A stretch of 32,641 nucleotides of DNA from a virus. Position 1 is the stretch's first letter. Every line of letters starts with the position of its first letter. A model generated the notes under the pieces. That model searched no databases. It was not told the DNA's origin and saw nothing but the letters and a program-made list of their open reading frames with translations. Below are positions 1 through 32,641 of this stretch, piece after piece. The position numbers and the translations under genes were made by a program. The stretch spans positions 1-32,641 of IMG/VR virus record IMGVR_UViG_3300028388_003028, one strand, 5' to 3'.

Positions 1-60
1 TGGCCGATCACCAGCGGCGAGCAGGGGACACCGGCACGAACGCAGATAGCAGCGCAGTAG
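1..60 (+). CDS. 3' fragment of beta-helix/FN3 exported protein (duplicate of 32543-32602)
   Basis: The frame is open from base 1 and reads WPITSGEQGTPARTQIAAQ before a TAG at 58-60. It is the same sequence as the end of the gene at 30287-32602 and appears here only because the circular contig repeats its first 99 bases. It should be merged with that gene. Confidence 0.9.
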   Translation, partial: WPITSGEQGTPARTQIAAQ

Positions 61-99
61 GAGTACAGCATGAAGGTTACCAGCGGCCCTAATTACTGG
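1..99. repeat. Terminal direct repeat, left copy (circular contig overlap)
   Basis: These 99 bases are identical to 32543-32641. The repeat holds the last 19 codons and stop of the beta-helix protein gene and the first 10 codons of the glycosidase-like gene, so it cuts through coding sequence. Exact overlaps of this kind are what assemblers leave at the ends of a circular molecule, and 99 is a common k-mer size. I read it as circularity of a 32,542-bp unit. A true terminal redundancy of the virion DNA is possible but less likely at this length and position. Confidence 0.9.
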
Positions 100-1776
100 C
101 TGCCCGACGTGGTTGAGCAGACCGAGTATTCTGGCTGGGGCGGCGGAGGCTGGGTCGAGTCAGAGTCGTCGATGATGGATTACGGGCTGCCATGGCGTGA
201 ATGGTGGTGGTACACGGTCGGCGACGGGTCCGGTACGGTGGATCTGTCGAATCTTGAGACCAGGCTCGCCTGGAACTGGGCGGCTGGCAGGACGATGGAG
301 ATCCGCCTGATGAACGGAGGGGCAAGAACGTCGTCCGAGGCACCGTTCGCCAACATCCCCGCTGATTTCCATTCCTACATGTCGGAATACCAGTACACTA
401 CAGGGCAAGGGTTATACCAGTGCAATGTATGGCATCCTACAGTCGCTTCTGCGTTCAACAACTTGATCACCGCTGTCGGAGCCGCGTATGCGGATGACGA
501 GCGGGTTGAGTCGGTGACGATACACGGGCTGTCCGACTCGACTGGCGAGGAATTCGTCTGGGAGCCATCACTACTACAGGCGATGGCCGACGAGTGGAGC
601 GGAGGCGATATCGACTCGCTGCGCACGGATATCGAAGACTGGCTCATGACTCGCATGGATGTCTACGCCGCCGCCTTTGCTGGGTACGAGCATAAGGTTG
701 TGTGGGTCGGGCACCACGGGGATAAGTGGGATATCTACATGCCCGAGTCGTGGCAGCAGATGAATCTCGACCTGATCGATTATGCGTTGAATCTCGGCTT
801 TGGCGTGCGCGGCGGAATCCACACAAAAAATCTTACGATTAACTTTCAGAACCCGACGCTCGGCTTAAGCATCGACTCGGACGGGTATCAGTACGTCGAC
901 GAAACGCTGCCTCAATTTGATGGGCGCTACCACGGTGAGGAAAACGAGTTCGTCTGGGGTGATGACCCGAGCGACCTTGAGCGTCATCGGTTGCAGATCA
1001 TGCGGGCGCTACAGCTTCGGGTCAATCACGTTTACTCTCATTACGCCAACATCTATCCGCTTAACACGGAATTTTGGGAGTACGCAAGGCTAAGTTTCGG
1101 TAAGACGGCCGCGACGTCGGCCGACGCCTGGGCCTGCCTGTGGGAGCAGGATATCAGCTCGTCTTCACTGTGGCCGAACACGACCAAGGTCCGAAACTAT
1201 GAGCGGTGGCTTATTCAGCGTGACCTGCCTGGCGGCACGACGACAGCGACCGAGTTCCACGCATCGACCAGTGGTGGTGGCGGCTTCGGCTGGGAGGTAG
1301 CGCCATACGGTTTCTATACAGCCCGCCGCACCGACCTGGATGGTGGCAATCGCCGCATCTTCTTCAAGGCAGACTTCGAGTACCGTATCGATATCCCGGT
1401 CCGGGTTCACGTCGAGATATACGACAAAGATTTGACTACCTTCGCAATCGAGTACAACGACGGCAGCGGCGTTGTGTCGACGCCGGGATACACCAGCTCT
1501 GGCGACAAGACGGTCAAGACTGTCGCGTGGGATATCAACGGCATGGACGCTGGCGGTCTTGATAACGGCCAGGATTTCGCGATAAACCTCGGCATTCTAG
1601 CGACGGCCGACGTCGTGGTGCGGATGGTCAGAGTAGTGCAGATCACGCCGGGTAGCGAGGCTAGCATTTACAGCGAGAACGTCAGCCTGTCGACGTCGTT
1701 CGACAAGACCGGCAGCGCATCCAGTTCGCTCACGAAGTCGGCCAGTCTGTCGGCGACGCTACGGGAGGAGTCGTAA
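70..1776 (+). CDS. Putative TIM-barrel glycosidase-like protein with C-terminal beta-sandwich (568 aa)
   Basis: The ATG follows AGGAG at 59-63 with a 6-base gap. This SD overlaps the stop codon of the preceding gene across the circle junction, so the two are translationally coupled. Residues about 75-370 look like a (beta/alpha)8 glycosidase of the DUF4832/GH42-like kind: an aromatic-rich start, a stretch from CNVWHP through an alpha-helical segment to RVESVTIHG, then a TGEEF motif that could carry a catalytic glutamate. A segment around VNHVYSHYANIYPLNTEFW resembles the later barrel strands. The last about 170 residues are beta-rich with S/T-rich ends, like an appended carbohydrate-binding or attachment domain. 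It has no signal peptide, unlike the four genes before it. Lying between the tail/exported genes and lysis genes, it may be a tail-associated glycan-binding or glycan-cleaving protein. The family call rests on pattern resemblance only. Confidence 0.5.
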   Translation: MKVTSGPNYWLPDVVEQTEYSGWGGGGWVESESSMMDYGLPWREWWWYTVGDGSGTVDLSNLETRLAWNWAAGRTMEIRLMNGGARTSSEAPFANIPADFHSYMSEYQYTTGQGLYQCNVWHPTVASAFNNLITAVGAAYADDERVESVTIHGLSDSTGEEFVWEPSLLQAMADEWSGGDIDSLRTDIEDWLMTRMDVYAAAFAGYEHKVVWVGHHGDKWDIYMPESWQQMNLDLIDYALNLGFGVRGGIHTKNLTINFQNPTLGLSIDSDGYQYVDETLPQFDGRYHGEENEFVWGDDPSDLERHRLQIMRALQLRVNHVYSHYANIYPLNTEFWEYARLSFGKTAATSADAWACLWEQDISSSSLWPNTTKVRNYERWLIQRDLPGGTTTATEFHASTSGGGGFGWEVAPYGFYTARRTDLDGGNRRIFFKADFEYRIDIPVRVHVEIYDKDLTTFAIEYNDGSGVVSTPGYTSSGDKTVKTVAWDINGMDAGGLDNGQDFAINLGILATADVVVRMVRVVQITPGSEASIYSENVSLSTSFDKTGSASSSLTKSASLSATLREES

Positions 1777-2354: not shown

Positions 2355-2687
2355 GTGAGGCTCAAAGACGGCGTGGTCCTCGCCGGCCTGAACTGGCGGA
2401 TGCGTAGGGTGCTGAGAGTCGCCGAGCACGTTTGGACAACCTACGGGTACGACCTGGTCGTGACATCCACGACCGAGGGCGAGCATAGCAGATGGAGCTG
2501 GCATCCATACGGTATGGCCATCGACCTGCGGACGCGCGGTATCGGTCTAGCAGAGGTAACAATGATCGCACAGGACATGCAGCACATACTCGGCCGACCG
2601 TACCAGGTCGTGGTCGAGGCGACGCACATACACATCGAGTGCGACTTGGACGCGAACCCTGACCTGGTGGGCGTGCATCCTGGCTAA
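2355..2687 (+). CDS. Endolysin, M15-type (VanY-like) peptidase (110 aa)
   Basis: The start is GTG at 2355, abutting the TAG of the upstream membrane protein. The protein carries the zinc-ligand pattern of the peptidase M15 family: HPYGMAIDLR with H50 and D57, and VEATHIHIE with E88 as likely general base and H91/H93 as ligands. Such domains cleave D-Ala-D-Ala or L-Ala-D-Glu bonds in peptidoglycan peptides. At 110 residues it is a bare catalytic domain with no cell-wall-binding module and no signal peptide, as expected of an endolysin that needs a holin. It lies between two membrane-protein genes, in a lysis cassette. I consider the catalytic family firm and the endolysin role very likely. Confidence 0.8.
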   Translation: MRLKDGVVLAGLNWRMRRVLRVAEHVWTTYGYDLVVTSTTEGEHSRWSWHPYGMAIDLRTRGIGLAEVTMIAQDMQHILGRPYQVVVEATHIHIECDLDANPDLVGVHPG

Positions 2688-3560: not shown

Positions 3561-3823
3561 TGCCTCGCAAGCGCAAGAGTCTCGACGTCGATGAGCTAGA
3601 TATCATGGCCGAGATCGACGCGATGCGGCCAACCAAGAGTTCGTACAAGCGGTCCTTTACTCCCGAGCAGGACGCCGCGCTCTGGGCAGCTCGTCGGCCC
3701 GAGGGCAAAACGCCGGTCAGATGGGCTGACCTGCTGGACTGGTGGGAAAAGCGTTGGGGAAACATTAACGTGGACACGATGCGCCGGCGATTGCGCGAAC
3801 TCGAACAGGAGCGGGAAGAATGA
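3560..3823 (+). CDS. Small charged hypothetical protein, possible HTH (87 aa)
   Basis: The ATG at 3560 overlaps the TGA of the phosphoesterase gene in a TGATG junction; a TTG one codon earlier is less likely. The product is very charged, starting MPRKRKSLDVDELD, with a tryptophan-rich middle (TPVRWADLLDWWEKRWG) followed by a basic helix (NVDTMRRRLRELEQ). The last part resembles the spacing of a helix-turn-helix or Myb-like DNA-binding unit, but I do not recognise a family. It has no membrane segment, so it is not a lysis protein in itself despite its position between the phosphoesterase and a holin-like gene. Confidence 0.6.
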   Translation: MPRKRKSLDVDELDIMAEIDAMRPTKSSYKRSFTPEQDAALWAARRPEGKTPVRWADLLDWWEKRWGNINVDTMRRRLRELEQEREE

Positions 3824-4035
3824 AGATCATCGGATGGCGAAAGCTAGGTTTTGGAATCGGCGTTATCGTTGCGGCCTATGGTTACATCTACATCTACACG
3901 TCCGGCAACCCGCCGGTCGCGCCTGAGATCCCGAACAACGTCCGCGACATCATCCTGGGCGTGTTCTTCGCTTTCGTCGGAGGCAACATCGCCGGCAAGT
4001 TCGCAAGGGCCAAGGGCGGGGACGAGCCGTCGTGA
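3820..4035 (+). CDS. Two-helix membrane protein, holin candidate (71 aa)
   Basis: The ATG overlaps the previous stop as ATGA. Two hydrophobic stretches are visible, residues about 8-26 and 44-60, separated by a polar PPVAPEIPNN loop, and the C-terminus is positively charged (KFARAKGGDEPS). Short proteins with two membrane helices and a basic tail beside an endolysin are typical class II holins, which open the inner membrane at a set time. The gene is followed by the spanin-like genes, completing a Gram-negative lysis order. The holin role is inferred from size, topology and position. Confidence 0.6.
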   Translation: MKIIGWRKLGFGIGVIVAAYGYIYIYTSGNPPVAPEIPNNVRDIILGVFFAFVGGNIAGKFARAKGGDEPS

Positions 4036-4322
4036 CCAGCATCAAATACTGGCTAATCGCAGCCGGTCTGATCATCGCTGCATTTCTTGGCCTACAGACC
4101 AAACATCGTCGCGCGCTAGAGGCCGAGCGCGAGCGTGCAGAGGCCGCCGAACGGGAGGCGATCGAACGTGCAAACGCTGCGGACATTGCACAGGCGCAGG
4201 CAACTATCATGCGTATTGATCGCGATCTGGCTCGTCTTCGCCAGTCAAGCGTTGTCGACCGAGTCTATGCCGCCATCGACGAGGCCAGGCGACGTCGACG
4301 AGCTGCAGCAGTTGCCCGCTGA
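4032..4322 (+). CDS. Inner-membrane spanin-like (Rz-like) protein (96 aa)
   Basis: The GTG start overlaps the previous stop as GTGA. The product begins MTSIKYWLIAAGLIIAAFLG, a single N-terminal membrane anchor, followed by about 70 residues of charged helix rich in E, R and A (EAERERAEAAEREAIERA). One anchor plus a long periplasmic coiled coil is the form of i-spanins such as lambda Rz, which with an outer-membrane partner fuses the two membranes in the last step of lysis. A second reading frame starting inside this gene encodes a protein with an export signal, as Rz1 does inside Rz. Family membership is by topology, since spanins share little sequence. Confidence 0.6.
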   Translation: MTSIKYWLIAAGLIIAAFLGLQTKHRRALEAERERAEAAEREAIERANAADIAQAQATIMRIDRDLARLRQSSVVDRVYAAIDEARRRRRAAAVAR

Positions 4323-4560: not shown

Positions 4561-4771
4561 ACTTCGACCTGTTCGGCATACCGATAACGGCCAGCAACGC
4601 TAGCGGACCGCAGACGAGAGACGCGAGAAACCAGGCGGTCCCTTCTAGCTTCTTGGAATTTGCGACGACGGTTGTCAGGATCACGGAGCATAGATACGTC
4701 CATATCGCGATGATGATCGGGATCATGGAAAAGAATGCCGCGACATCCTCTGGCCTGACTTGGTTATTCAC
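4550..4771 (-). CDS. Small two-helix membrane protein, superinfection-immunity-like (73 aa)
   Basis: The start is GTG at 4771, overlapping the TAG of the integrase gene by one base with an AGGA a few bases before it, so it is translated from the integrase message. Two hydrophobic segments are visible, residues about 11-36 and 45-65, the second reading WFLASLVCGPLALLAVIGMP. This layout resembles small phage and bacterial membrane proteins of the Imm/superinfection-immunity type. Because it sits in the lysogeny arm it could protect the lysogen against DNA injection by related phages. That role is inferred; the sequence only shows a small membrane protein coupled to the integrase. Confidence 0.5.
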   Translation of the reverse strand: MNNQVRPEDVAAFFSMIPIIIAIWTYLCSVILTTVVANSKKLEGTAWFLASLVCGPLALLAVIGMPNRSKFSE

Positions 4772-5895
4772 TATCCTGTTCCCTTCATGATCTTGGCCAC
4801 GATCTCGGCAGCCTCGCGCTGCGCTTCGAGTGACCGATGAGTGTATATCTCGGTGACACCGGTGTCCGCGTGGCCGAGCTGGTCGCTGATTACCCGAAGT
4901 TCCACGTTGGCATTTTCAAGCCAAGTTGCGAATGTGTGGCGCAATGTGTGCAACACGACGTCTGGCATTCCGGCCGCCTCACGCGCCGCTCGCCAGGGCT
5001 TATCTGGCGACACGATATGCCCATCTCCGCGACTTGACGGGAATACCCATGGTGACCATCGGCGCGTCTTGTCGCCGGTCTGCGCTCGCCGCCGGGCCAG
5101 CAGGATATCGACGGCGGCGCTGGCCAGCATTGTTGGTGCAACCGACCCTCCCTTTTGGACCCTTCGCCATATGCCGTCGTCAAGGTTGATCTGGTCCCAC
5201 CTCATGGCGCAGACCTCCGCCTTGCGCGATCCTGTCAGCAGTAGCAGCCTGACCATGTCTGGCAGCGGGTCGGGCTGTTTGTCGACCTCGGCGAGTAGGC
5301 GCTGATATTCCGCCGGCGTCAGCCAACGGTCTCGCCGGCGCATCTTGTGCGGTCGCGGCAACCTTGGCGCTGCGTCGATATATCCCCAGTCCTCGGCCCG
5401 TCCTAGCACGGAAGACAGGCACGCGCGCACCTTGTTCGCCCATGCCGGCGAATTGTGTAGATCGGCCAGCAGACAAGCAACGTCGGCCCGTGTGATGCGA
5501 TCGGCCGGCATGTGGTGCAGCGGGGCCAGCGTAAGCCAGGCGTCGTTATACGCGCGCTGAGTGGCCGTCGAAAGTGTCGCCAGGTGGCGCTCCTGGTAGA
5601 TCGCCCAGAAGGACGACAGGCGTATCGCCTGGCGCGGTAGGTCATCGCTTGCACGCTTGCGGTTCAGTTCGTGGGCTCGCTCTCGAGCTGCGGCAACTGA
5701 CCAAGCTGGGAACTCGCCTATCGGTATGCGCCGCGCCTTGCCGTGCGCCCAGCGCCGCCAGAAGAAAACAGCGCGGCCAGTCGGCCGGACGTCAACGCCG
5801 AGACCTGGCTCGCCGGTCCGCGTGTCGTCCATCATCCGCGCCTTTCGGCCGGCCTTCTGGAGTCGCTTGATTGTCTTGGCGTCCAGGTGTGTCAT
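4771..5895 (-). CDS. int: Tyrosine integrase, P4-type (374 aa)
   Basis: A site-specific recombinase that joins attP to the host attB and reverses this with an excisionase. The N-terminus (residues about 1-85, KTIKRLQKAGRKARMMDD and following) is the DUF4102-like arm-binding domain, and residues about 92-185 form the core-binding SAM-like domain. The catalytic domain shows all expected residues: R224 in TGSRKAEV, K248 in VQKGG, H316 and R319 in HTLRHTFAT, H342 in LGHAD and nucleophile Y351 in IYTHRS. The length is normal and nothing is missing. The gene reads away from attP (6046-6090), which lies 150 bp upstream of its start, the usual arrangement for prophages inserted in tRNA genes. A membrane-protein gene is coupled downstream. 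Confidence 0.95.
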   Translation of the reverse strand: MTHLDAKTIKRLQKAGRKARMMDDTRTGEPGLGVDVRPTGRAVFFWRRWAHGKARRIPIGEFPAWSVAAARERAHELNRKRASDDLPRQAIRLSSFWAIYQERHLATLSTATQRAYNDAWLTLAPLHHMPADRITRADVACLLADLHNSPAWANKVRACLSSVLGRAEDWGYIDAAPRLPRPHKMRRRDRWLTPAEYQRLLAEVDKQPDPLPDMVRLLLLTGSRKAEVCAMRWDQINLDDGIWRRVQKGGSVAPTMLASAAVDILLARRRAQTGDKTRRWSPWVFPSSRGDGHIVSPDKPWRAAREAAGMPDVVLHTLRHTFATWLENANVELRVISDQLGHADTGVTEIYTHRSLEAQREAAEIVAKIMKGTG

Positions 5896-9867: not shown

Positions 9868-9977
9868 GCGACAGCAATGGCGATGGCTGGGGCGATAGCT
9901 GGGGCGATGACTATGGCTGTGGCTGTGGCGATGGCGATGGCTGTGGCCATGGCGATTGTGAGTCCGGGCAATGGTAG
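9861..9977 (+). CDS. Glycine-rich repeat ORF 1 (38 aa)
   Basis: The ATG is embedded in the last codons of the upstream gene (ATGGTAG). The product is almost a pure alternation of glycine with D, W, N, S, Y or C, starting MVGDSNGDGWGDSWGDDYGC, and ends HGDCESGQW. That ending copies the CEPEQW end of the upstream protein, and the next ORF starts in the same ATGGTAG context. Nearly every second codon is GGC. Proteins of this make-up occur in phage early regions, but their role is unknown. It could instead be simple-sequence DNA that happens to be open. Confidence 0.4.
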   Translation: MVGDSNGDGWGDSWGDDYGCGCGDGDGCGHGDCESGQW

Positions 9978-10160
9978 CGGAAGACAAGAGCTACTGTGAC
10001 TACAGCTATGGCTATGGCTGGGTCGATGGCCATGGCAATAGCTATGGATCTGGCGATGGCCATGGCACTGGCTGTGGCTTTGGCAATGGCAGTGGCTATG
10101 ACAATGGCTGTGGCGATGGCTTTGGCAATGGCAATGGCTGGGGCGATGGCTATAGCTAAT
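9868..10160. repeat. Degenerate GGC-N-A-T simple-sequence tract
   Basis: About 290 bases of imperfect repeats built from GGCGAT, GGCAAT, GGCTGT and GGCTAT hexamers. The tract contains the two glycine-rich ORFs. From 10160 to 10234 the sequence is ordinary and I see no gene in it, only the AAGGGAAGG SD region of the replication initiator. Confidence 0.8.
9971..10159 (+). CDS. Glycine-rich repeat ORF 2 (62 aa)
   Basis: Starts at an ATG overlapping the stop of glycine-rich ORF 1 (ATGGTAG). After MVAEDKSYCDYSYGYGWVDG it continues as alternating glycine with D, N, H, S, C, Y, F and W (residues 14-61), with GGCAATGGC and GGCGATGGC units dominating the DNA. The 14 or so aromatic residues among glycines resemble low-complexity, phase-separating or strand-forming sequences. 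The two other plus-strand frames and the minus strand also stay open because of the repeat, so coding status rests on the coupled starts and regular codon pattern. Confidence 0.45.
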   Translation: MVAEDKSYCDYSYGYGWVDGHGNSYGSGDGHGTGCGFGNGSGYDNGCGDGFGNGNGWGDGYS

Positions 10161-21897: not shown

Positions 21898-22022
21898 CAG
21901 TGTGCAAGGTACTTGACGGGATCGCCCAGACGTATCACTGCCGGCCTAGCGACCTTGTCGCAGGCGGCCACGCTTCATTGTCGTTCGACGTAGCAGTACG
22001 CATGAAAGCGAGCGCGAAGTAA
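21894..22022 (+). CDS. Tail assembly chaperone, second part (gpT-like, 42 aa alone)
   Basis: This frame starts with an ATG overlapping the stop of the first chaperone (ATGA) and could be read by reinitiation or as the tail of a -1 frameshift product. The product contains IAQTYHCRPSDLVAGGHASL, then a FDVAVRM helix, which matches the 'Y.CRPS.L......F..AV' signature of the second tail chaperone in many siphoviruses. Its own stop overlaps the ATG of the tape measure gene. As a free peptide it is short, so the fused form is more likely to be the working one. Confidence 0.65.
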   Translation: MTVCKVLDGIAQTYHCRPSDLVAGGHASLSFDVAVRMKASAK

Positions 22023-23434
22023 TGGCCACCAGGCGGCTAGTCGAGATCGTCCTGAAGGGCAAAGACGAGACGAAGGGTGCGTTCGACTCCCTCGCATCGA
22101 GCCTCGGCGTTGCCGACGCGAAGGCGCTCAAGTTGGCCGCTGGTGCTGCTGCTGTCGGGACTGCGCTGGTGACCGCGACCAAGGCCGTTTATGACTTCAC
22201 GGCCCAACAGGCGGCGGCAGGTGATGCTGCTGCTAAGTTCGCATACCGGCTAGGCTTAACGGTTGAGGGCCTGAGCGAACTCGACTACATCGCCAAGCGT
22301 GGTAACGTGTCCGTCCGCACGATGGGTATCGCGATGCAGCGCATGACGCGCCGCGTGGCGGAGGCGGCGCAGGGGCTCGGTGAGGCCCGAGACGCCATCC
22401 GCGAGCTCGGGATAGACGCTGCCGCTATTACTTCGATGTCGCCCGATAAACAGTTTTACGAGATCGCCAGAGCGCTGCAGGACGTAACAAGACAGAGTGA
22501 CCGCGTGCGTCTGGCGTTTAAGCTGTTCGACTCCGAGGGAGTGTCGGTCATCCAGACGCTCAAGGGAGGCCTGGCCGAAACGCGCAAAGAGTTCGAGCGG
22601 TTCGGTGGCGCTATGTCTGCGTCTTTTGCGTCCGGGAGCGAAAGCTTTGCCAACGCACAGTCGAACCTGGCGAACGCAACAGACAGGCTCAAAGAGGCGC
22701 TAGCCGAGCCGTTTCTCGCTCCGTTCACGCAGGCGATCAATACGCTAGCGACAGTGCTCGGCAATGGCCGGGACGCGGCCGCTGGCATCAACAATGCGTT
22801 GGCCTCCATGCCCGGCATTGTCGGTGCATACGGGCGGGCAGCAACCGCCAGGCCGCAAGCCGGCCGTCAGGTGACAGACCTCGAGCAGTGGGCGAACAGT
22901 TACGGCACCGGTGGAGGTGTATTCGGCATGTCGCCGCCGACCGCCACCGTACCGACCGGGCCGTACAACCCAGGCACCTACGCGCCTAATCCTCACTGGA
23001 TGCCACCGATGCCGATGGACGGCCTCGAGGCCATGTCGCCAGAAGACCTGGGCCTCATGTTCGGCGAAGTGGACTTCGACCTCATGCGCGGCATGAAAGA
23101 AATGGAGGATTTCAGCGAGGCGGCCGTCTCTGCGGCGGCCACGTTCCAGTCTGCAATGTCGTCGGCGTTCGCGACGGCCATCATGGACGCCGGCAACGCG
23201 GCTGAGGCTATCCGTGACATCTTCGTAAGCACCCTGTCGAATCTCGCTGGCTCGTTCCTGTCGGCTGGGATTTTCGCGGCGCTCGGCCTGCCGGTCGCTG
23301 GACCGTTCGCTTCTGTGTTCGGTAAGAGTTCAGTGTCCGGAGCGACAAAGTCGATGCCTGGATCGGCCGTCCTCGAGAAGGTTGGCGAATACAATTACAT
23401 GGCCGGATCGGCCTATGGAAAGGCGTTTATCTGA
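22022..23434 (+). CDS. Tape measure protein, short (470 aa)
   Basis: The ATG overlaps the previous stop. The product is alanine-rich and mostly helical (ASSLGVADAKALKLAAGAAA; NLANATDRLKEALAEPFLAP), with a hydrophobic segment near the C-terminus (AGSFLSAGIFAALGLPVAGP) that is typical of tape measure proteins. A proline-rich stretch lies near residues 310-340. Position after the chaperones and before the distal tail genes is standard. By the family rule of about 1.5 angstrom per residue, 470 residues predict a short tail of roughly 70 nm. No lysozyme or peptidase domain is visible. Confidence 0.85.
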   Translation: MATRRLVEIVLKGKDETKGAFDSLASSLGVADAKALKLAAGAAAVGTALVTATKAVYDFTAQQAAAGDAAAKFAYRLGLTVEGLSELDYIAKRGNVSVRTMGIAMQRMTRRVAEAAQGLGEARDAIRELGIDAAAITSMSPDKQFYEIARALQDVTRQSDRVRLAFKLFDSEGVSVIQTLKGGLAETRKEFERFGGAMSASFASGSESFANAQSNLANATDRLKEALAEPFLAPFTQAINTLATVLGNGRDAAAGINNALASMPGIVGAYGRAATARPQAGRQVTDLEQWANSYGTGGGVFGMSPPTATVPTGPYNPGTYAPNPHWMPPMPMDGLEAMSPEDLGLMFGEVDFDLMRGMKEMEDFSEAAVSAAATFQSAMSSAFATAIMDAGNAAEAIRDIFVSTLSNLAGSFLSAGIFAALGLPVAGPFASVFGKSSVSGATKSMPGSAVLEKVGEYNYMAGSAYGKAFI

Positions 23435-25239
23435 TGAGCGGCGCGCGTATCAATATCGTTCGTGCCGAGACAATCGAGGCGGCCGAGGGACTGGACTACG
23501 GCTCTCCAGGCTCGTCTGCGGCGAAGTATGACGACGTCGAGTTGGTGACGCCGCAGAACGAACCTTGCGCGATGCTTGCGGCCCCTGTATGGCAGGACAA
23601 TGACGTCAGGTACGAGTACATAATGGGCGGCGTTGGGACGTCTGCGAGGCGTTCGCGTCACGTCATCACCGTCGCCGTCGACTACATCAGCAACGCGATA
23701 CGGAGCAAGCTCGAACAATGGCAGCGCGACCGCGCGTTAGTCTGGTTCTGCCCAGGTTTTGGCCGGCACACTGAGATCGCCGTCCGTGCTATCGAGGGCG
23801 ACGGCACGACCTTAGCAGACGGCGCGACGACCTTCGAGGACTTGACTGGGCGCTGGAACTTAACGTCTTCCAGCGATCCCACTGAGTCCTACGTCTGGGA
23901 TCGCGAGTTGCAGGCGATGCGAGGCGCGTGGACTGGCTCGAATACGCGCAAGATCATGCCTACGCGGTACGGAGCCTGCCAAGTTGTCGAGAAGGCCAAG
24001 ACGAACCGGCACAGTCCCGGCCACCCGGTTTCGGCCACCGAAGGCAACGGCGTCGGCGATGCCGGCTGGGTCAAAGGTGGGACTCATTCCGCCGACATCA
24101 CGTTGGGGATTGAGGCCACCGGAGCCTACGTGTTCGGGCACGCGGATTGCCGCGACGCGCTGCGAGTAAAGACTGCCAACGCGGCTGGCCGTAACAGGCA
24201 ACTAGACGCCGGCCAGCAATTCGACAGCAGCGATCCGGAGTACAACGGCGACGGGACGCTGACCGGCGCTGGAGAGATTTCGGTCTCTATCTGGATCAAG
24301 GGCCGTGTCAACCCGAGCGCCGCGCTGTACGTCGGCCAGGTCGGCGGCAGTCAGAACAGCGTATTGCTGTCCGATTATGACTTGAGTGAGTGGACGAAGA
24401 TATCATGCTCGTACTATTCGGGCGACTGGTCGTCAGGGATACCCATCATCACTATCTGGCTCGGCACCAGCGCGCAGGCATACGACGACAATTTCTTGAT
24501 CGGCCCGACCGCTGTTGTATTCGGCCAAGGACACGCAGAACCCGAATGGTCTGAGTACGACACGGCCGTCAGCGCGGACACGCTGGCAACGACCAGCTCG
24601 TCGTTCAGATTCCCTGTAGCCGGTAGCATGATTGCCGCGTTCTACGTGCCGAACGACGTACACGACGCGGATTATCCGCAGGGTGCATCGACACATCTGA
24701 TCGAGAACAGCGGCGGCAATCCAGGTCGACTCAGCCTGGTGATGGGGGCGAGTACGCTAGGCGCGTACCTCCACCGCACCGCGTCGTTCTCGATTGGCGG
24801 CGAGGTTACCCTGGTGCCGGGTAAGATCAACACCATCGCCGCGACGTGGGGCAGCGAGAGCGATTACAACATCTATTGCAACGGCGAGTTGATCGACACG
24901 TCGGACACCACCGAACATGAAGGCGATTTCGCCGATAGCGTCGGCACGCTCTATTTCGGCGGCTCGGCAGGCGGTGGACTCCCGCTCTGGCTGTCGTCAG
25001 CGCGCATTGACCATGACGTATGGACGGCGGCCGAGGTCGCAGAACACCACGCCGCGCTAGCAGACCAGGTCGCCAACCTTGTGTCCGTGCAGGCGCGCGG
25101 ACGTAAGTACCGAATCGCACAGATACCATCGACGCCACGCAATGGCGTTGACGGCGCTCACTGGATCGGCCAGCTCGTCCTCGAGGAGTTCGAGTACGAC
25201 AGCAACTACGGCGACATCACAACGGCGGAGACGTACTGA
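23434..25239 (+). CDS. Distal tail/baseplate protein with LamG-like jelly-roll domain (601 aa)
   Basis: The ATG overlaps the tape measure stop (TGATG). The first about 130 residues (ISNAIRSKLEQWQRDRALVW-type region preceded by beta strands) fit the N-terminal belt of a distal tail protein. Residues about 200-330 hold a beta-sandwich with a VSIWIKGRV strand. The C-terminal domain, residues about 450-560, carries a concanavalin/LamG pattern: 'VPGKINTIAATWGSESDYNI', YCNGELIDTSDTTEH, and 'LPLWLSSARIDHDVW'. Such domains bind sugars or proteins on the host surface. It likely joins the tail tube to the fibres. The exact names of the domains rest on pattern. Confidence 0.65.
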   Translation: MSGARINIVRAETIEAAEGLDYGSPGSSAAKYDDVELVTPQNEPCAMLAAPVWQDNDVRYEYIMGGVGTSARRSRHVITVAVDYISNAIRSKLEQWQRDRALVWFCPGFGRHTEIAVRAIEGDGTTLADGATTFEDLTGRWNLTSSSDPTESYVWDRELQAMRGAWTGSNTRKIMPTRYGACQVVEKAKTNRHSPGHPVSATEGNGVGDAGWVKGGTHSADITLGIEATGAYVFGHADCRDALRVKTANAAGRNRQLDAGQQFDSSDPEYNGDGTLTGAGEISVSIWIKGRVNPSAALYVGQVGGSQNSVLLSDYDLSEWTKISCSYYSGDWSSGIPIITIWLGTSAQAYDDNFLIGPTAVVFGQGHAEPEWSEYDTAVSADTLATTSSSFRFPVAGSMIAAFYVPNDVHDADYPQGASTHLIENSGGNPGRLSLVMGASTLGAYLHRTASFSIGGEVTLVPGKINTIAATWGSESDYNIYCNGELIDTSDTTEHEGDFADSVGTLYFGGSAGGGLPLWLSSARIDHDVWTAAEVAEHHAALADQVANLVSVQARGRKYRIAQIPSTPRNGVDGAHWIGQLVLEEFEYDSNYGDITTAETY

Positions 25240-25778
25240 TGGCTCGCTTGTCAGCAGACGAGATCGCTGCTATCGCCGCTGGCCAGCCGGTCGAGCAGGA
25301 CTGGACGGTCTCGGTTCCGCAGGCGTCCGGCAGCTCGACGTTTGCGGCCGTCAGGTTGCACAGCGACACGGGCGGCCCGTACAGGGTCACGGACGCCGGT
25401 CAGTACACGGTCGAGGGGTACAACGTATCGATGGCTGAGCCAGGCCGGCTTAGGTCTGGGATGTACCGATTTACGGTCGACAACGGCGATGGATACCTGA
25501 GTTCATATTCGTCGACGAATGTCTGGTACAACACGTCCGGCAGCTATCAGGCCGACCCCATCGAATGCCGCGTAGCGCATCGGGTGCGCGTGCGGCTCCT
25601 GAGCGGGTCGTGGTCCGAGATACTGTACTACGTCGGACTGGTCGACGACGTGCAGTACGACGAGACGAATGGCACAGCGACGATCCAATGCAGGAGTATT
25701 TCGACCTTTGTGCTGGATGAGCTTTGGACGGTTGACGACGGCACCGATGTTGACACCGGATTGAACGTGGTGGTTTAG
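25239..25778 (+). CDS. Baseplate hub N-terminal-like protein (179 aa)
   Basis: The ATG overlaps the previous stop (TGATG). The product is beta-rich (YRVTDAGQYTVEGYNVSMAE, RLRSGMYRFTVDNGDGYLSS, YYVGLVDDVQYDETNGTATI), the pattern of the first beta-barrel of gp27-like tail hubs, with 'VDNGDG' and 'YVGLVDDV' strands. The stop is followed after one base by the GTG of the next gene, which continues in the +1 frame with related hub-like sequence. It could be the N-terminal half of a hub gene that was split, or an independent component. Confidence 0.5.
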   Translation: MARLSADEIAAIAAGQPVEQDWTVSVPQASGSSTFAAVRLHSDTGGPYRVTDAGQYTVEGYNVSMAEPGRLRSGMYRFTVDNGDGYLSSYSSTNVWYNTSGSYQADPIECRVAHRVRVRLLSGSWSEILYYVGLVDDVQYDETNGTATIQCRSISTFVLDELWTVDDGTDVDTGLNVVV

Positions 25779-25779
25779 C

Positions 25780-27063
25780 GTGGCGCTTGGCTCGACATGG
25801 TTTGATGGGACCGGGACACCGAGTTACACCGACGTTCGGTGCGACCCGGACTTTACGTCTGCATCTTCGTCGAGCACAACGTCCGGGAGCTACATCCGCT
25901 ACGATTACGGGCCGTGTGGCTGGCTGGTATTTTTGCCGAACAAGGCGAACACGAACGGCGGGAACATACGCGACCCTGAATATGGGTACGTCTACGCAAC
26001 GAAGGACAGCGACGGGTCAGATGTTGCGTTGCGGAACATCTATCACAATCTGCGCTCTGCCCCGGCCTGGTCGCGGACGACAGACGAGAACATGTACAGG
26101 CCATTCGACGATGACCAGTACAGTGCGGAGATACGCATCGTCCTGCCAACGGGAGGTTCCGATATATGCTCTGTCCACTTGTACCAGCCTTATTGCTGGT
26201 ACGGCCGTGTCGCCCAGGTTATCGCTGCCATCCTGATAAGCAAGGGCCTTCCGATAGCGTATATCGACCAGACAGCATTTTCGGCCGCCGACGATGCCCA
26301 GGCTGCCATGGGCACAATCGACGACGAGGAGCCGTATGTGTTCTTCCGTCGCCAGCTCGGCCAGTCGCTTGGCGAATCCATCAAGGCGCTTGCTGTCAAT
26401 ACATGGGACATCATGACCATCAATCTGGATGGCAAGTTCGCGATGATGCCGAGGACGTCCGTGCCGGCTGGCTATACGATATCTGGCCTCGCCCGGACCG
26501 ACGGCGTGGTAACCGTACAATGGCGATACGCTCGCGAGATGCTGGTTAATCATACTATTGCCAGCGATGGTCGATACTACGACGTCCAGTTCGAGACAGT
26601 CGGGACATTCTCGAACGTACCGTCCACCGTTTCGGAAACAGCGTTCCCTAGCGCGGTCAGTGAAATGCGCGAACTGCCGTTTGAGGAGTTCGGGGATTCG
26701 ACCAGCCAGACGCGGTACGGCGTGCGTGAGCTTGGGCGTCAACTTGACCTGCAAGAGGGTAAGGACGTCCGAACCATCAGAGCGTACCACCTGCCATATT
26801 TTTGCAACATCGAAGGATCGTCTGGTGACCCGCTCGCGGCAAAGTCGGTGCTGATGGCCAGGCTCGCCAGCGTCGAGGCGAAGCTACGTCGCGAGGTCAC
26901 AATTACCCAAGACCTGCGTGGACTTGACTACGACGTCGGGTATCTAGTCGAAGACCTCGAGGTTACCAGCGACGGAGCCACGTTCGATGCGTTCTGCACC
27001 AAGAAGACCATCGATTTCAACGACCTGTCGGTCACATCGGTTCTCCTAGAAGAACCAGCCTGA
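25780..27063 (+). CDS. Baseplate hub/tail-tip protein (427 aa)
   Basis: The start is GTG, one base after the previous TAG. The product shows a tail-hub layout: 'AQVIAAILISKGLPIAYIDQ', then 'LGESIKALAVNTWDIMTINL', then 'DGKFAMMPRTSVPAGYT' and a C-terminal beta domain ('VRTIRAYHLPYFCNIEGSSG', 'REVTITQDLRGLDYDVGYLV'). Proteins of this size after the distal tail protein form the central hub at the tail tip. No peptidase or lysozyme motif is visible. The gene ends four bases before the signal-peptide gene's CATGGAGGG element. Confidence 0.55.
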   Translation: MALGSTWFDGTGTPSYTDVRCDPDFTSASSSSTTSGSYIRYDYGPCGWLVFLPNKANTNGGNIRDPEYGYVYATKDSDGSDVALRNIYHNLRSAPAWSRTTDENMYRPFDDDQYSAEIRIVLPTGGSDICSVHLYQPYCWYGRVAQVIAAILISKGLPIAYIDQTAFSAADDAQAAMGTIDDEEPYVFFRRQLGQSLGESIKALAVNTWDIMTINLDGKFAMMPRTSVPAGYTISGLARTDGVVTVQWRYAREMLVNHTIASDGRYYDVQFETVGTFSNVPSTVSETAFPSAVSEMRELPFEEFGDSTSQTRYGVRELGRQLDLQEGKDVRTIRAYHLPYFCNIEGSSGDPLAAKSVLMARLASVEAKLRREVTITQDLRGLDYDVGYLVEDLEVTSDGATFDAFCTKKTIDFNDLSVTSVLLEEPA

Positions 27064-27081: not shown

Positions 27082-27402
27082 ATGTACCGCTTTATCATCG
27101 TTGCCGCGATACTTCTCGGCTCGGCCATTGCTCTGGCGGCCACGTCTGACGAGGTCGTGACCGAGGCTACCGAGATCAACGTCGTGGGCCGTACCGGCGC
27201 GTCTGTGCTCGCTGACGGCGGCTCTGCAATCGTGCTGCTGACGTCATGGGACGCTACGGCTGGCGACCGCGACACGGTGCAGGTCCGTTACGTGCGCGAC
27301 CTGGTGCCCCGTGAGCTGTTCTGGTCGCCCGCATGGGACAAGGTGGACACGCTCACGGTCGTGCCGACCGGCGCTGATACCGTCATCGTGACGTTGCACT
27401 AG
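27082..27402 (+). CDS. Small exported protein with Sec signal peptide (106 aa)
   Basis: From ATG 27082 the product begins MYRFIIVAAILLGSAIALAA, a textbook signal peptide: short basic start, hydrophobic core and a small-residue ALA-A cleavage site before TSDEV. The mature part is beta-rich (GASVLADGGSAIVLLTSWDA, DTVQVRYVRDLVPRELFWSP, DTLTVVPTGADTVIVTLH). No lipobox. It is the first of four adjacent exported-type genes that follow the baseplate genes. Small beta proteins of this size can act as adaptors. I do not recognise a family, and an export signal is unexpected at this position in a phage. Confidence 0.65.
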   Translation: MYRFIIVAAILLGSAIALAATSDEVVTEATEINVVGRTGASVLADGGSAIVLLTSWDATAGDRDTVQVRYVRDLVPRELFWSPAWDKVDTLTVVPTGADTVIVTLH

Positions 27403-27416
27403 CGCGAGGGGTCGAC

Positions 27417-28919
27417 ATGCGCCGGATCGCCTTGCTCGCTCTGATCGTTATTGCGCTCGCCGCGTTGATCGTCGGCGCTGGCGATCCGTACCCATCGAAA
27501 TCGCAGACTTATGGCGGCAAGAGTTACCCGCGCATCCGGTCGTCATTCGACTATGCGCGCGCATCTTGTACGGTAGCAGCAGAAGCCGACGACCCAGTGC
27601 TGACCGTCAAGACCAAACAAAAGACCGCGCATACCGTCAGACTGGATGCTGCGTATCTGACCGGACCTGGTGGCGGCGGACCAGTGTCTCGGACGGTTGT
27701 TTGGGGAGACTCGACTAGCAGCCTCAAGAAGTACAGCCAGACGATAGACCTCGCGACGATCGCCGGCGATTGGTCCTACTACACCGACGACACTATCCAG
27801 GTATGGGTGCGGGTCGACGGCGAGCTGGCGATGACTCGCAAGTTTGTGCCGATCGAGGACGTAACTCCGCCCGTGATCGCCTCGTTCACGGCCGATGCTC
27901 CCGACTCGACCGGTGCTGACGGCAACTGGCAGCTTGACGTGGCGTTCTCGGCCGACGAGAGCGGCGAGGCGGTAGTCAAGTTCGCGACGTCGGTCGGCGG
28001 CCTGGCATCTGCCGACACGGTGGTTCTGGGCACCGACATTAGCAGCTACGACGGTCCGCGAGATACAGGGATCTCACTTGATGCGCTGAACGCCGGTACG
28101 GTGTACGTGAGCCTGGTGGTTACCGACGACTCGGGCAACGCCAGCAGCACGTCGAACGATACGCAAGCGGTCACGCGCCAGGCGGACACGACACCGCCTA
28201 CTCTCACCTTTGTCTCGATCACCTACGACGAGGGCACCGAGACGGTCACCGGCAACGTGACTGGCGACGAGCCCTGGTACGCATCCTACCGCCACCGCTA
28301 CGATACCGACCCGTGGTCTACCGCCGCTGTAGGCGACACGCTCGCGTCTGACCAGACGGTAGTCGTAGACGTCTCTGGCGCGGCTGATGACACGGTGGTC
28401 GAGATCGAGGTAGGCGGAGACGATGAGCTAGGCAACTCCGCTACGCCGGTCTCTGATACCGTCACGGTAGTGCGCGGGTCTGGTGCGCCCAGCGCGCCTA
28501 CCGGCCTCGTAGCGACGATCAGCAACGATGTCGAGGCTCCCGACAAGCCGACCGGTGAGAGCGCCGTGGCTGGCACCGGCGAGATCGCTGTGACCTGGGA
28601 CGCGAACACCGAGCCTGACCTGAGCCACTATTACGTCTACAGGGGTACGACTAGCGGCAGCCTCACGAAGCTCCCAATGTCGCTGCTGACGGCAGAGTAC
28701 GACGATACGGATCTGGTGGATGGCGTGACGTACTACTACGCGATCACTGCCGTTGACGATAAATATAATGAATCAGTGCAATCTGACGAGACCAGCGCGG
28801 TGGCGGTCGTGGCTGACACGACGCCGCCTGCCGCGCCGACCGGGCTAGCGGCTACGATTAGCGGCGACACTACCCCGCCTGATGCTCCGACTGGGCTGAC
28901 GGCTACAACGCAGGAGTAA
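27417..28919 (+). CDS. Exported FN3-repeat protein (500 aa)
   Basis: Starts MRRIALLALIVIALAALIVG with a likely cut after VGA, and an SD GAGGGG. The mature protein is a string of beta domains: residues about 25-140 unassigned beta; an Ig-like domain from TPPVIASFTADAPDSTGADG; another from TPPTLTFVSITYDEGTETVT; and FN3 from 'PDKPTGESAVAGTGEIAVTW' through 'SHYYVYRGTTSG' and 'VTYYYAITAVDDKYNES'. It ends in two 17-residue tandem units, DTTPPAAPTGLAATISG and DTTPPDAPTGLTATTQE. The last unit is the A-strand of a further FN3 domain that never continues; the continuation appears in the next gene. A fibre-like extracellular protein is likely. Confidence 0.65.
   Translation: MRRIALLALIVIALAALIVGAGDPYPSKSQTYGGKSYPRIRSSFDYARASCTVAAEADDPVLTVKTKQKTAHTVRLDAAYLTGPGGGGPVSRTVVWGDSTSSLKKYSQTIDLATIAGDWSYYTDDTIQVWVRVDGELAMTRKFVPIEDVTPPVIASFTADAPDSTGADGNWQLDVAFSADESGEAVVKFATSVGGLASADTVVLGTDISSYDGPRDTGISLDALNAGTVYVSLVVTDDSGNASSTSNDTQAVTRQADTTPPTLTFVSITYDEGTETVTGNVTGDEPWYASYRHRYDTDPWSTAAVGDTLASDQTVVVDVSGAADDTVVEIEVGGDDELGNSATPVSDTVTVVRGSGAPSAPTGLVATISNDVEAPDKPTGESAVAGTGEIAVTWDANTEPDLSHYYVYRGTTSGSLTKLPMSLLTAEYDDTDLVDGVTYYYAITAVDDKYNESVQSDETSAVAVVADTTPPAAPTGLAATISGDTTPPDAPTGLTATTQE
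28815..28916 (+). repeat. Two 51-bp tandem repeats at the gene end
   Basis: Unit 1 (28815-28865) and unit 2 (28866-28916) encode 17-residue units DTTPP-x-APTGL-x-AT and end exactly at the stop codon. A more diverged copy lies at about 28490-28555. The repeats are a natural site for recombination that could add or remove FN3 domains. Confidence 0.8.
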
Positions 28920-28922
28920 GAA

Positions 28923-30284
28923 ATGCGACGGACCATGACTTGCCTATTGCTCGCCGTGATGGTCGGGCTGGCGCTCGCCCAGTCGGTGACGCTGGACTGG
29001 GACGACAACATTGAGGCTGATCTCTCGCACTACATCGTCTATCGAGGTGTCGAGACTGGCGTACTCTGGCCTATGTCAGTCTATGTTCCGAGCATCGCGG
29101 AGATCCTGACCAGCACGTATGTGGACACGTCGGTGCAGACAGATTCGACGTATTACTACGCGGTCACGGCAGTGGACAATGACGACAACGAGTCGTCTGA
29201 GAGTAGCGAGATTTCGGTGACGCTGGACTTCACCGCGCCCGATACCAGCTCGTTCGCGGCGGTGGTGTTCGACACGACAAACGCAAGCAACGTCATGCTC
29301 GACCTAGCGGCGGTAGCGGACGAAGCAGCCCTTGCCTCCTGGCAGTGGCGCGAGGCCTACGACGGTACGTGGACGCCGACCAGCGACCAGTGGGTTGCGA
29401 CCGACGATCACAGCGACACGACGTTTGCGACGAGCCTGAGCGATACGATCTACACGACGCTGGCTACGTCTGCGATGGACTCGGCGCAGGTGCGGTTCCG
29501 CCTCAAAGATGCCAATCAGAATGTGTCTGACTGGTACGGGCCGTTTGATAATGAGTTTGTGAGGGAGGATGCCTCTGGCAGCCCCAAACTCTACATCATT
29601 TATAGCGACAACCACAACACGGATTCAGATAACATCACGATTAGCGACGCAGATAACGACGGCAACGGAACTATCACGTATGACACTGGCTCATATACTG
29701 GAGATTATGAGGTAATTGAATCGTCGGATTGCACATACGGCGAACTGGACCAGGGCGATCCGAACAATGCGAACACCGGCGACCAGGAAGTAAATAGTGC
29801 CGTAGGCCTGCCACACACGAGCGGCAAAAACATTCTGATGTACTTCCCGCTCGGTGGGGTCGCCGGTACGGCGTCCGTTGATTCTGCCACCGTGCTCTAC
29901 TACGGGAATGGGGGGTGGATCGATGCAGGGGACACGTTGTTTGTTTACGGGGCCGACGATTCCGACCTGGTTGAGTGGGTCGATGAGTCCGACGTTTCCT
30001 ACAATTATAGCGATGTCTCGGCCACCACGGCCTGGGGTACAGCGATCAGCACATACGACAGTTTCACCGGGACTGACTTGACGATCCTTCAGGCCGAGCG
30101 GGCACCATCTGACTGGTATCACCTGGCTGCAACAAACGCGGTAACTCGTTGGATCGACGACGGCCAGCCAAATGCTGGGTTTTGGATTGATTTGGGAACT
30201 GCCGACAACGTATCCGACTGGCATATAATCGAGAATCACTCGAACGCTAGGTCGCCAGTCCTTCTGCTGTACGTGCAGGAGTAG
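28923..30284 (+). CDS. Exported FN3 + DNRLRE-like protein (453 aa)
   Basis: AGGAG lies six bases before the ATG, at the end of the previous gene. The product begins MRRTMTCLLLAVMVGLALA with an ALA-QS cleavage site. The mature N-terminus SVTLDWDDNIEADLSHYIVY is strand B onward of an FN3 domain, lacking strand A, followed by VQTDSTYYYAVTAVDNDDNE. A middle beta region (residues about 100-240) follows. Residues about 265-450 resemble a DNRLRE/CBM-like jelly-roll: NILMYFPLGGVAGTASVDSA, LTILQAERAPSDWYHLAATN, VTRWIDDGQPNAGFWIDLGT and the final SPVLLLYVQE. Such domains bind polysaccharide or form parts of surface filaments. The gene is translationally coupled to both neighbours. Confidence 0.65.
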   Translation: MRRTMTCLLLAVMVGLALAQSVTLDWDDNIEADLSHYIVYRGVETGVLWPMSVYVPSIAEILTSTYVDTSVQTDSTYYYAVTAVDNDDNESSESSEISVTLDFTAPDTSSFAAVVFDTTNASNVMLDLAAVADEAALASWQWREAYDGTWTPTSDQWVATDDHSDTTFATSLSDTIYTTLATSAMDSAQVRFRLKDANQNVSDWYGPFDNEFVREDASGSPKLYIIYSDNHNTDSDNITISDADNDGNGTITYDTGSYTGDYEVIESSDCTYGELDQGDPNNANTGDQEVNSAVGLPHTSGKNILMYFPLGGVAGTASVDSATVLYYGNGGWIDAGDTLFVYGADDSDLVEWVDESDVSYNYSDVSATTAWGTAISTYDSFTGTDLTILQAERAPSDWYHLAATNAVTRWIDDGQPNAGFWIDLGTADNVSDWHIIENHSNARSPVLLLYVQE

Positions 30285-30286
30285 CA

Positions 30287-32602
30287 ATGAAATATATACT
30301 GACAATTGCGATCTTGATTTGTCCGCTCGTAGCGATCGGCCAGTCCTGGACGAGTATCGATGCTTTTGAAGCGTTTAGCGATACGTTCTTTACGGTTGGG
30401 CAAGACAGCCTGTACCTTGATCATTTCGGCACGTCATTTGAATTTGGCGATAGCACATGGACGGACGCTGGCCGCAATAGGTTTTCAGTCTGGACAACGA
30501 CCACTCATGATGCTGACCTGTTTGTGGCGTACGGAACGACAGACAGTTACGGCGACACGGTGTCCGGCGACGGCAACCGATACTGGACTCACCTGCGGAT
30601 CATCCCCGGCCTGACCGCGAGCACCGAATATCATTACAAGATTGTAGCCGTGTCTGCGGCCGGCGATACGATCACGACCGACGATGCGACGTTCACGACG
30701 GTCAGCGGCAGCGGATGGACCGAGGTCACGGGAACGCCGCCGCACACGCTAGATTCTGCATCGACAACTTACTATCTATCGTCGGACGTGACCGCCGACA
30801 CGAGGGCTTTCACCATCAGCGCAAGTGGTATCACGCTCGACCTCAACGGCTACACCGTAAGCTACGACAACGATACACCAGATGTCGCAGACGGATCGTC
30901 GTGGGACTCGTTCTATTATTCATCGACTGCAACTTTCGGCGTTCGGGTCGGCTCGTCTAGTGTAACGATAACCGGAGGCTATATTGTTCAGGGATCTTAC
31001 GGAGGTCAAAGTTCCGCGAACGCTATTGGGTTCAATCCGATTTTGAGTTCCGCTGCGAGCACCGCAATACAGGGCGTTGACATTACGTATTATGGCGATC
31101 AGGTGTCCGGCATATACCTGCGAGGAACCCCCGGCGGTGATGTCTATTACACGTCGATCAGTGACACTGGCACGGTAATTGACAACCGGCACCAGGGCGT
31201 GGCGGCGGCCGAGGGCGACAACGGTATCGGCTATTACGGCGTCCTAGTGAAACGTGCTCGCCAGCAAGGCCTTATGTCCTCAAGTGGTGCGGAAAAATGC
31301 GAGGTCCGTGCAGATTCGTGGGCAACAAACTCGTTTTCCATTGCGCCCCAGAGGAACTCGGTTACGTATGACAACATTTTAATGGGCACTGGTTATCATA
31401 ATGTAGGCGGCGGTTGGGCTTTGATTGACGACTGCGATTCGCTGGTTGTGCGAAAGAATTTTGTTCACGTTGTGGCGCAAGAACCCAGCAACAGAAGCGA
31501 CGAGTATTCAACTCATGCCAGCGCCAACGGTATGCGGCTGACGCAGTACAGCGGCAGCAGCTATAACTATAACAATTACCTATACGAGTACAATACGATC
31601 CTGGCACAAGGACGGGATGCACCGGACCAGTTGCGCGGCACACAGTTCTTCTCGGGCGCGTATGTGAGCAACCTGCGTTTCAGGCACAATACCGTGAAGG
31701 TTGACATGCTGGACGATAGCGCCCCGACCTTCGGCGGGTGTGTCCATCTGCACGGCGGGTCGAACACGCCGGCGCTGCCGGTCTTATATTCCGACAACAC
31801 GTTTATCACTGACCTTCGGCACATCACCAGCAACGACAATTACGCCGGTGGTGGCCACCATCGTTTTGTTGACAACATCTTCCGCAAGATCGAAGACCGG
31901 GCTGATTATAACACCATCAAGCTCGGCTATTGGGTTTACGATTCCCCAGGCAACGAACTGTTTGATAACTACTTCTGGGGCGGCGCTGGCCCTGAAGACA
32001 ATAATTTCGACAACGCAAATTCCGAGGCCGAGAACTCGTATTATTATGGCCATACCTCCTGGTTCCGATTGGAAGACGGCAATGGTGTCTTGGCCAACGA
32101 GCCGGTAACGATGACGACCGCACAGGGCTACAGCTACACCGACACTACCGACGCCGGCGGGCTAGTGCGCCTGGATTTGTGCGACTGGGATTATACTGAG
32201 CCAGCGGGATCAACAACAGAATCCAAGACCGACCACAACGGCTGGATGATTCACTTCAACTCCGACTCAGTCGCCGTATCTGATGCCGATACGGCTGTCA
32301 GCAATACCAGCCTAACACCGCTGGTCTACACGATAGCGGGCTCTGGCGGCCAGGTGTCCGAGTTTTCGGTCTCTTCCGCCACCCGCACCGACGGCAACGC
32401 AGTGCTCGCCTGGAGCGATACCGGTGCCGACTCCTACCAGGTCCAGATCGACGCCAGTGGTGTGACGATCTACCACGCTACAACGACCGGCACGACGATC
32501 ACCATCCCCGACGTGGACCTCGGCGCGCTGGACGTTACGGTCTGGCCGATCACCAGCGGCGAGCAGGGGACACCGGCACGAACGCAGATAGCAGCGCAGT
32601 AG
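30287..32602 (+). CDS. Exported beta-helix protein with flanking FN3-like domains (771 aa)
   Basis: AGGAG lies five bases before the ATG and overlaps the previous stop. The N-terminus MKYILTIAILICPLVAIGQS is a signal peptide with an AIG-QS cut site. Residues about 40-140 contain an FN3-like domain (LRIIPGLTASTEYHYKIVAV). Residues about 160-560 show the repeating strand pattern of a right-handed parallel beta-helix (pectin-lyase fold): 'FTISASGITLDLNGYTVSYD', 'SSVTITGGYIVQGSYGG', 'CDSLVVRKNFVHVVAQEPSN', and 'NYLYEYNTILAQGRDAPDQ'. The last about 85 residues are another FN3-like unit (AVLAWSDTGADSYQVQIDAS). Beta-helices with such caps are typical of tail spikes and surface adhesins. The gene runs across the circle junction into the glycosidase-like gene. 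Confidence 0.7.
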   Translation: MKYILTIAILICPLVAIGQSWTSIDAFEAFSDTFFTVGQDSLYLDHFGTSFEFGDSTWTDAGRNRFSVWTTTTHDADLFVAYGTTDSYGDTVSGDGNRYWTHLRIIPGLTASTEYHYKIVAVSAAGDTITTDDATFTTVSGSGWTEVTGTPPHTLDSASTTYYLSSDVTADTRAFTISASGITLDLNGYTVSYDNDTPDVADGSSWDSFYYSSTATFGVRVGSSSVTITGGYIVQGSYGGQSSANAIGFNPILSSAASTAIQGVDITYYGDQVSGIYLRGTPGGDVYYTSISDTGTVIDNRHQGVAAAEGDNGIGYYGVLVKRARQQGLMSSSGAEKCEVRADSWATNSFSIAPQRNSVTYDNILMGTGYHNVGGGWALIDDCDSLVVRKNFVHVVAQEPSNRSDEYSTHASANGMRLTQYSGSSYNYNNYLYEYNTILAQGRDAPDQLRGTQFFSGAYVSNLRFRHNTVKVDMLDDSAPTFGGCVHLHGGSNTPALPVLYSDNTFITDLRHITSNDNYAGGGHHRFVDNIFRKIEDRADYNTIKLGYWVYDSPGNELFDNYFWGGAGPEDNNFDNANSEAENSYYYGHTSWFRLEDGNGVLANEPVTMTTAQGYSYTDTTDAGGLVRLDLCDWDYTEPAGSTTESKTDHNGWMIHFNSDSVAVSDADTAVSNTSLTPLVYTIAGSGGQVSEFSVSSATRTDGNAVLAWSDTGADSYQVQIDASGVTIYHATTTGTTITIPDVDLGALDVTVWPITSGEQGTPARTQIAAQ

Positions 32603-32641
32603 GAGTACAGCATGAAGGTTACCAGCGGCCCTAATTACTGG
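32543..32641. repeat. Terminal direct repeat, right copy (circular contig overlap)
   Basis: Identical to 1-99. It contains the end of the beta-helix gene and, from 32612, the first 10 codons of the glycosidase-like gene. Confidence 0.9.
32612..32641 (+). CDS. 5' fragment of glycosidase-like gene (duplicate of 70-99)
   Basis: Reads MKVTSGPNYW up to the end of the window. It is the overlap copy of the gene at 70-1776 and should be merged with it. Confidence 0.9.
   Translation, partial: MKVTSGPNYW

Follow-up and report, generated by a model that had tools for sequence, protein, structure and literature searches.

Fibre-like genes with predicted Sec signal peptides in a long-tailed phage, and a possible route by which tail fibres join virions outside the cytoplasm

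In the textbook account, tailed phages are assembled in the cytoplasm, and the viral genome studied here raises the question of what four consecutive fibre-like genes of its late operon are doing with N-termini that look like Sec export signals. An earlier note, made from the letters of the window (the whole stretch of 32,641 bases), had offered two answers: a set of secreted proteins by which the host is coated or altered, or components of the virion whose addition takes place outside the cytoplasm. We think that the second is to be favoured, on the strength of virion MS/MS annotation in Cellulophaga phages, and present it here together with its alternatives.

The window carries an exact terminal direct repeat of 99 bp (1..99, plus strand, identical to 32543-32641), and can for this reason be taken as a complete or circularly permuted phage genome. 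Besides a terminase, a portal-MuF fusion, a protease, a major capsid protein and a head-tail adaptor, it encodes on the plus strand a tape measure protein (22022..23434; phrog_9483, E 1.3e-30), the mark of a long-tailed phage, followed by three tail-tip or baseplate genes (23434..27063, with starts at 23434, 25239 and 25780; 601, 179 and 427 aa), which are free of signal peptides and are kept in the relative described below. The four signal-bearing genes come next and, since the terminal repeat joins the genome ends, the cassette runs over the junction into a gene for a 568-aa protein without signal peptide (70..1776, plus strand), the following one in the operon. The lysis region starts with a candidate endolysin on the plus strand (2355..2687), whose M15 peptidase-like match is weak (E 0.007, below the curated cut-off); two small membrane proteins of 71 and 96 aa (3820..4322, plus strand) are putatively holin/spanin-like, to judge from their position and shape. 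With an integrase-like gene on the minus strand (4771-5895, from a reading of its translation), the phage is best read as temperate and long-tailed. The four genes had been described as coupled to their neighbours in a late operon between baseplate and lysis genes, and this is borne out: all have good ribosome sites, and the gaps upstream of them are of 18, 14, 3 and 2 nt.

Two other regions of this genome deserve mention. Between the early and late genes (9877-10158) stand degenerate tandem arrays of short units (ATGGCT-type, 5-6 bp, in tens of copies); the relative has arrays of different sequence at a similar position (L018 4339-4670), and both are possibly an origin or a regulatory region. 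The first tail-tip gene (23434-25239) seems, by motif, to contain a LamG/concanavalin-like stretch, its counterpart in the relative being 50% identical, and it could be, from these sequence features, a cytoplasmic receptor-binding protein; it is possible that both signal-less genes, 23434 and 70-1776, provide other receptor-binding proteins in the window, a point against the reading favoured here. A host search with a terminase profile over 84,980 genomes gave no match, and one with a portal profile over sampled Bacteroidota, Planctomycetota and Acidobacteriota gave distant prophages only; the one in Planctomycetota is without the signal cassette, and the stretch examined of the one in Bacteroidota covered the genes up to the tape measure.

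What do the four genes, all on the plus strand, encode? The first (27082..27402) specifies a 106-aa protein with a predicted Sec signal peptide (MYRFIIVAAILLGSAIALA, cut before A) and a domain of about 87 aa whose family is unassigned. The second (27417..28919) encodes a fibre-like protein of 500 aa in which a Sec signal peptide, possibly a signal anchor, precedes a conserved N-terminal module of about 160 aa, repeats and a C-terminal FN3 domain (PDB 3mpc_A, E 9e-7); its match to tail phrog_11445 (E 2.6e-8) is the sole PHROGs tail match in the cassette. The third (28923..30284; 453 aa, fibre-like) has a predicted signal peptide ending in LALA before Q, then FN3, a domain that is repeated in the relative, and a C-terminus resembling DNRLRE by motif only. 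The fourth (30287..32602; 771 aa, fibre-like) has one ending in VAIG before Q, followed by FN3-like and beta-helix-like repeats, again by motif. The domain assignments proposed beforehand thus stand in part: FN3 is supported in 27417 and, through its 48% identity with 27417 over 65 aa, at the start of 28923, whereas DNRLRE-like and beta-helix remain motif readings, Pfam and NCBIfam searches of the cassette having returned no usable domain and none for these two. A structure prediction had also been suggested; single-sequence models of 28923 and 30287, the two proteins modelled, were discarded as unusable (mean pLDDT 34 and 32). Altogether, the tail-fibre position of the window is occupied by an unbroken run of at least three fibre-like genes with signals, and the cassette resembles tail fibres in lying in the late operon after the tail hub, in its modular repeat proteins, in its sugar-binding-type domains and in its swapped tips.

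Signals were called with a rule-based procedure scoring the charge of the n-region, the hydrophobicity of the h-region and an AxA-type site. On 46 genes of E. coli K-12 it recovered 8 of 10 known Sec/SPI proteins, with five extra calls (four lipoproteins and one enzyme), and in lambda it picked only Lom, Rz, Rz1, Bor and RexB, that is, not a single virion protein. The genes 27082, 27417, 28923 and 30287 score 12.9, 14.0, 13.1 and 11.6, values reached by 5, 0, 0 and 1 of 5000 shuffles of their first 45 residues. Among the 35 genes scanned in the window, convincing Sec signals are found in these four and in the two small membrane proteins adjoining the lysis genes (3820-4035 and 4032-4322), and nowhere else. 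The cassette proteins show n-, h- and c-regions and a signal-peptidase I site, with 27417 borderline for cleavage: its hydrophobic core of about 19 residues is long for a signal peptide, and its N-terminus is possibly an uncleaved signal anchor. In Bacteroidetes, substrates of signal peptidase I have Q right after the cut, the so-called Q-rule (PMC5837995). This holds for 2 of the 4 predicted cuts in the window and for 0 of 3 in the relative, and since just half of the window signals fit, the host is possibly not a typical member of Bacteroidota.

Among 2.9 million viral contigs we found one relative (G001, locus L003, 33.7 kb), and it is a diverged one (63% identity in the baseplate hub, 51% in the portal); when viral contigs were scanned with 23434, 28923 and the N-terminal module of 27417, it was again the only one found. 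The earlier note had advised a search for the same signal-bearing cassette in related phages, and in G001 three genes of this kind are retained at the corresponding place (L003 positions 11305, 11641 and 16341). After its hub come proteins of 104, 1572 and 413 aa, all signal-bearing. The 104-aa protein (L003:11305-11619) is a homologue of 27082 (55% identical). In the 1572-aa protein, the first 160 aa or so are homologous to the N-terminal module of 27417 (47%), and copies of the middle domain of 28923 recur in the interior (62-71%), while the 413-aa protein shares the C-terminal 90 aa or so of 30287 (35%). Between the two genomes the mature parts have been shuffled and the export signal has been retained on each gene. 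Together with the calibrated calls, this makes it well supported that the predicted Sec-type export signals of the cassette are real, as had been claimed for the four genes, and that their position is kept in the relative.

Further layouts were sought with the downstream metallophosphoesterase as probe, a gene common to many unrelated phages. In the 88 loci fetched, 37 of 950 genes of at least 150 aa carry a signal (3.9%, against 0.46% for shuffled N-termini). Two of the loci closely parallel the window in layout. Locus L098 has a hub, a 109-aa signal protein, a 522-aa signal fibre and lysis genes, without any signal-less fibre after the hub; L081 has signal proteins of 107 and 1594 aa, the latter matching phage tail fibres. 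In these unrelated phages the large signal-bearing partners carry tail-fibre-like sequence. Homology between the proteins of about 105 aa in the window, L098 and L081 is unsupported (hhalign probability 11% and 5%) and was set aside. The same loci contain other signal-bearing proteins: small ones with an apparent single FN3-type domain (L055:8049, L024:~1298, L089:7959 and 8352) sit just upstream of the metallophosphoesterase in several unrelated contigs, and trypsin-type serine protease-like ones of about 280-310 aa occur in L033/L034 (-5901 from the metallophosphoesterase), L037, L106 and L108.

The most instructive parallels come from isolated Cellulophaga phages. At the tail-fibre position, siphovirus phi10:1 has the consecutive signal-bearing genes gp091-gp094 (345, 401, 777 and 317 aa), and siphovirus phi19:1 (gp101-104) and podovirus phi18:3 (gp085-087) likewise have consecutive signal-bearing fibre or pectate-lyase-like genes. 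The notes in their GenBank records annotate these sets as virion proteins from experimental MS/MS. Homologous signal-bearing sets occur in phi19:3, phi13:2 and Nekkels_1, so that the set as a whole is common to different phage families (phi10:1, phi19:1 and Nekkels_1 in Assiduviridae; phi18:3, phi19:3 and phi13:2 in Pachyviridae), two of the MS-typed phages being long-tailed. In the pectate-lyase-like protein, the first 94 residues, signal included, are identical at 92-94 of 94 positions between phages, and beyond residue 94 identity is 17%, 26% and 57% (103/596 and 164/627 in two cases); in the gp094 family, identity is 34-38 of 38 over the N-terminal 38 residues and, in most pairs, 15-33% over the remainder. 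To judge from these alignments, this is the layout of tail fibres, with a fixed base and a variable tip, and the export signal lies within the fixed base. Seven of the eight distinct Cellulophaga signals fit the Q-rule, in proteins whose mature Q content is 1.4-3.0%, which argues for genuine cleavage by signal peptidase.

The window resembles these phages in having three to four signal-bearing genes of fibre type in a row where tail fibres are encoded, and in its modular tips. It differs in that the Cellulophaga phages are AT-rich, have known flavobacterial hosts and have MS/MS annotation, and no sequence homology is detectable (tblastn of 27417 and 30287 against the phage collection gave no Cellulophaga match); the conclusion is therefore transferred by layout only. 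That the cassette products are virion parts is supported by analogy, and secreted proteins could also have co-purified with virions in the Cellulophaga MS/MS.

Are such signals simply a habit of phages of these hosts? In nine other Bacteroidota-host phages (Cellulophaga phi12:1 and phi38:1 covered in part) the annotated tail-fibre genes are without signals, which were found on spanins, lipoproteins and small proteins, and the homologous fibre domain of Cellulophaga phi4:1 carries no signal; the signals are for this reason a property of the fibre cassette and not of the host. As an exception, Flavobacterium phage FCL-2 (L113, 45363-45806) encodes, far from its tail genes, a protein of 147 aa in which a Q-type signal precedes a motif typical of tail fibres (VGIATTTPTETLDVNG). 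The arrangement had been called non-standard for a siphovirus, and it is so in comparison with lambda, two other isolated phages and the nine Bacteroidota phages, all without signals on annotated tail fibres, but it is not unique: the signal-bearing fibre layout is found again in four or more other phage groups, podoviruses included. In the literature searched, to which subscription papers mostly did not belong, we found nothing on signal peptides of tail fibres and no description of fibre addition to the virion outside the cytoplasm.

The alternative to be taken most seriously is that the cassette products are not virion parts and are secreted so that the cell, infected or lysogenic, is coated or trimmed by them, for superinfection exclusion, adhesion or trimming of the capsule. 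We regard this as rather unlikely, although it accommodates the reality of the signals and has several precedents. In lambda, a signal-bearing gene occupies the corresponding slot, after the host-specificity protein and before the side tail fibre, and its product Lom is exported; Lom differs, however, in being a single outer-membrane protein, neither fibre-like nor part of the virion. Host-type Sec signals on phage genes have been noticed by others in Porphyromonas gingivalis phages ("Nixviridae"), where five Q-rule genes are read by the authors as outer-membrane modifiers, and the passages concerned place none of them in the tail region or in virions (PMC10367356). Phage tail proteins that reach the cell exterior and bind surfaces are also represented by PblA/PblB of Streptococcus phage SM1 and by PblB of pneumococcus, PblB having been found on the surface of cells; but the host is Gram-positive, they are released by lysis and rebind, and a signal is predicted only for pneumococcal PblB (PMC4508584). 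Against secretion speak the fibre-type domains of the cassette, the L098 hub with no signal-less fibre after it, the virion MS/MS annotation of the closest layout analogues, and promoter-like matches at the level of the shuffled background (5 found, 4.3 expected).

One could also imagine that the hydrophobic N-terminus stays uncleaved and does not serve export, and that a fibre assembled in the normal way uses it as a hydrophobic docking peptide or to anchor itself in the membrane. The long core of 27417 fits this idea, as does the finding that the signal is among the most conserved parts of the Cellulophaga family, but most members have AxA-type sites, Q after the cut is expected only for substrates of signal peptidase, and a basic N-terminus with a hydrophobic core normally engages Sec/SRP; we consider it improbable. 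As for chance or mis-called starts, the N-termini of 27417 and 27082 are simple and rich in hydrophobic residues, and 1.5% of random draws from the mature composition of 27082 score as signals. Coincidence is nevertheless scarcely credible for four genes in a row with shuffled rates of at most 0.1% each, when other structural genes lack such calls, and conservation in the diverged G001 in effect refutes it.

We thus lean, with moderate confidence, towards the view that the cassette products are tail fibres which are synthesised as Sec pre-proteins and which attach to the virion outside the cytoplasm, probably during lysis. In this scenario, the late operon of a temperate long-tailed phage would code for its fibres and accessory tail-tip proteins in pre-protein form, and the host Sec machinery would carry them across the inner membrane, where signal peptidase I would remove the signal. 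The cleaved fibres would fold and oligomerise outside the cytoplasm and, once holin, endolysin and spanin open the cell, would join the finished virions; the mature N-terminal module would hold the virion and the variable C-terminal modules would bind or cut surface sugars. Periplasmic maturation, attachment outside the cytoplasm and its timing are what we infer here. In extracts, fibres of T4 and tailspikes of P22 attach to particles, and it is for that reason chemically plausible that fibres and tailspikes are added to finished particles outside cells.

As to a broader statement, we would put at about even the chances that some tailed phages of diderm bacteria finish their virions outside the cytoplasm, with Sec-exported, periplasm-matured fibres joining tails when the cell opens, and that the cassette travels whole between phages with long and with short tails. 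The idea is directly testable in phi10:1-like isolates, for which virion proteomics already exist. If it is true, export may be a means of sparing the cytoplasm sticky or enzymatic fibres, or of priming the surface of the cell ahead of release. It would also single out a class of phage proteins to which annotation pipelines at present give the label of secreted host factors, and tailed-phage assembly would gain a periplasmic branch through virion fibres whose export signals are cleavable.
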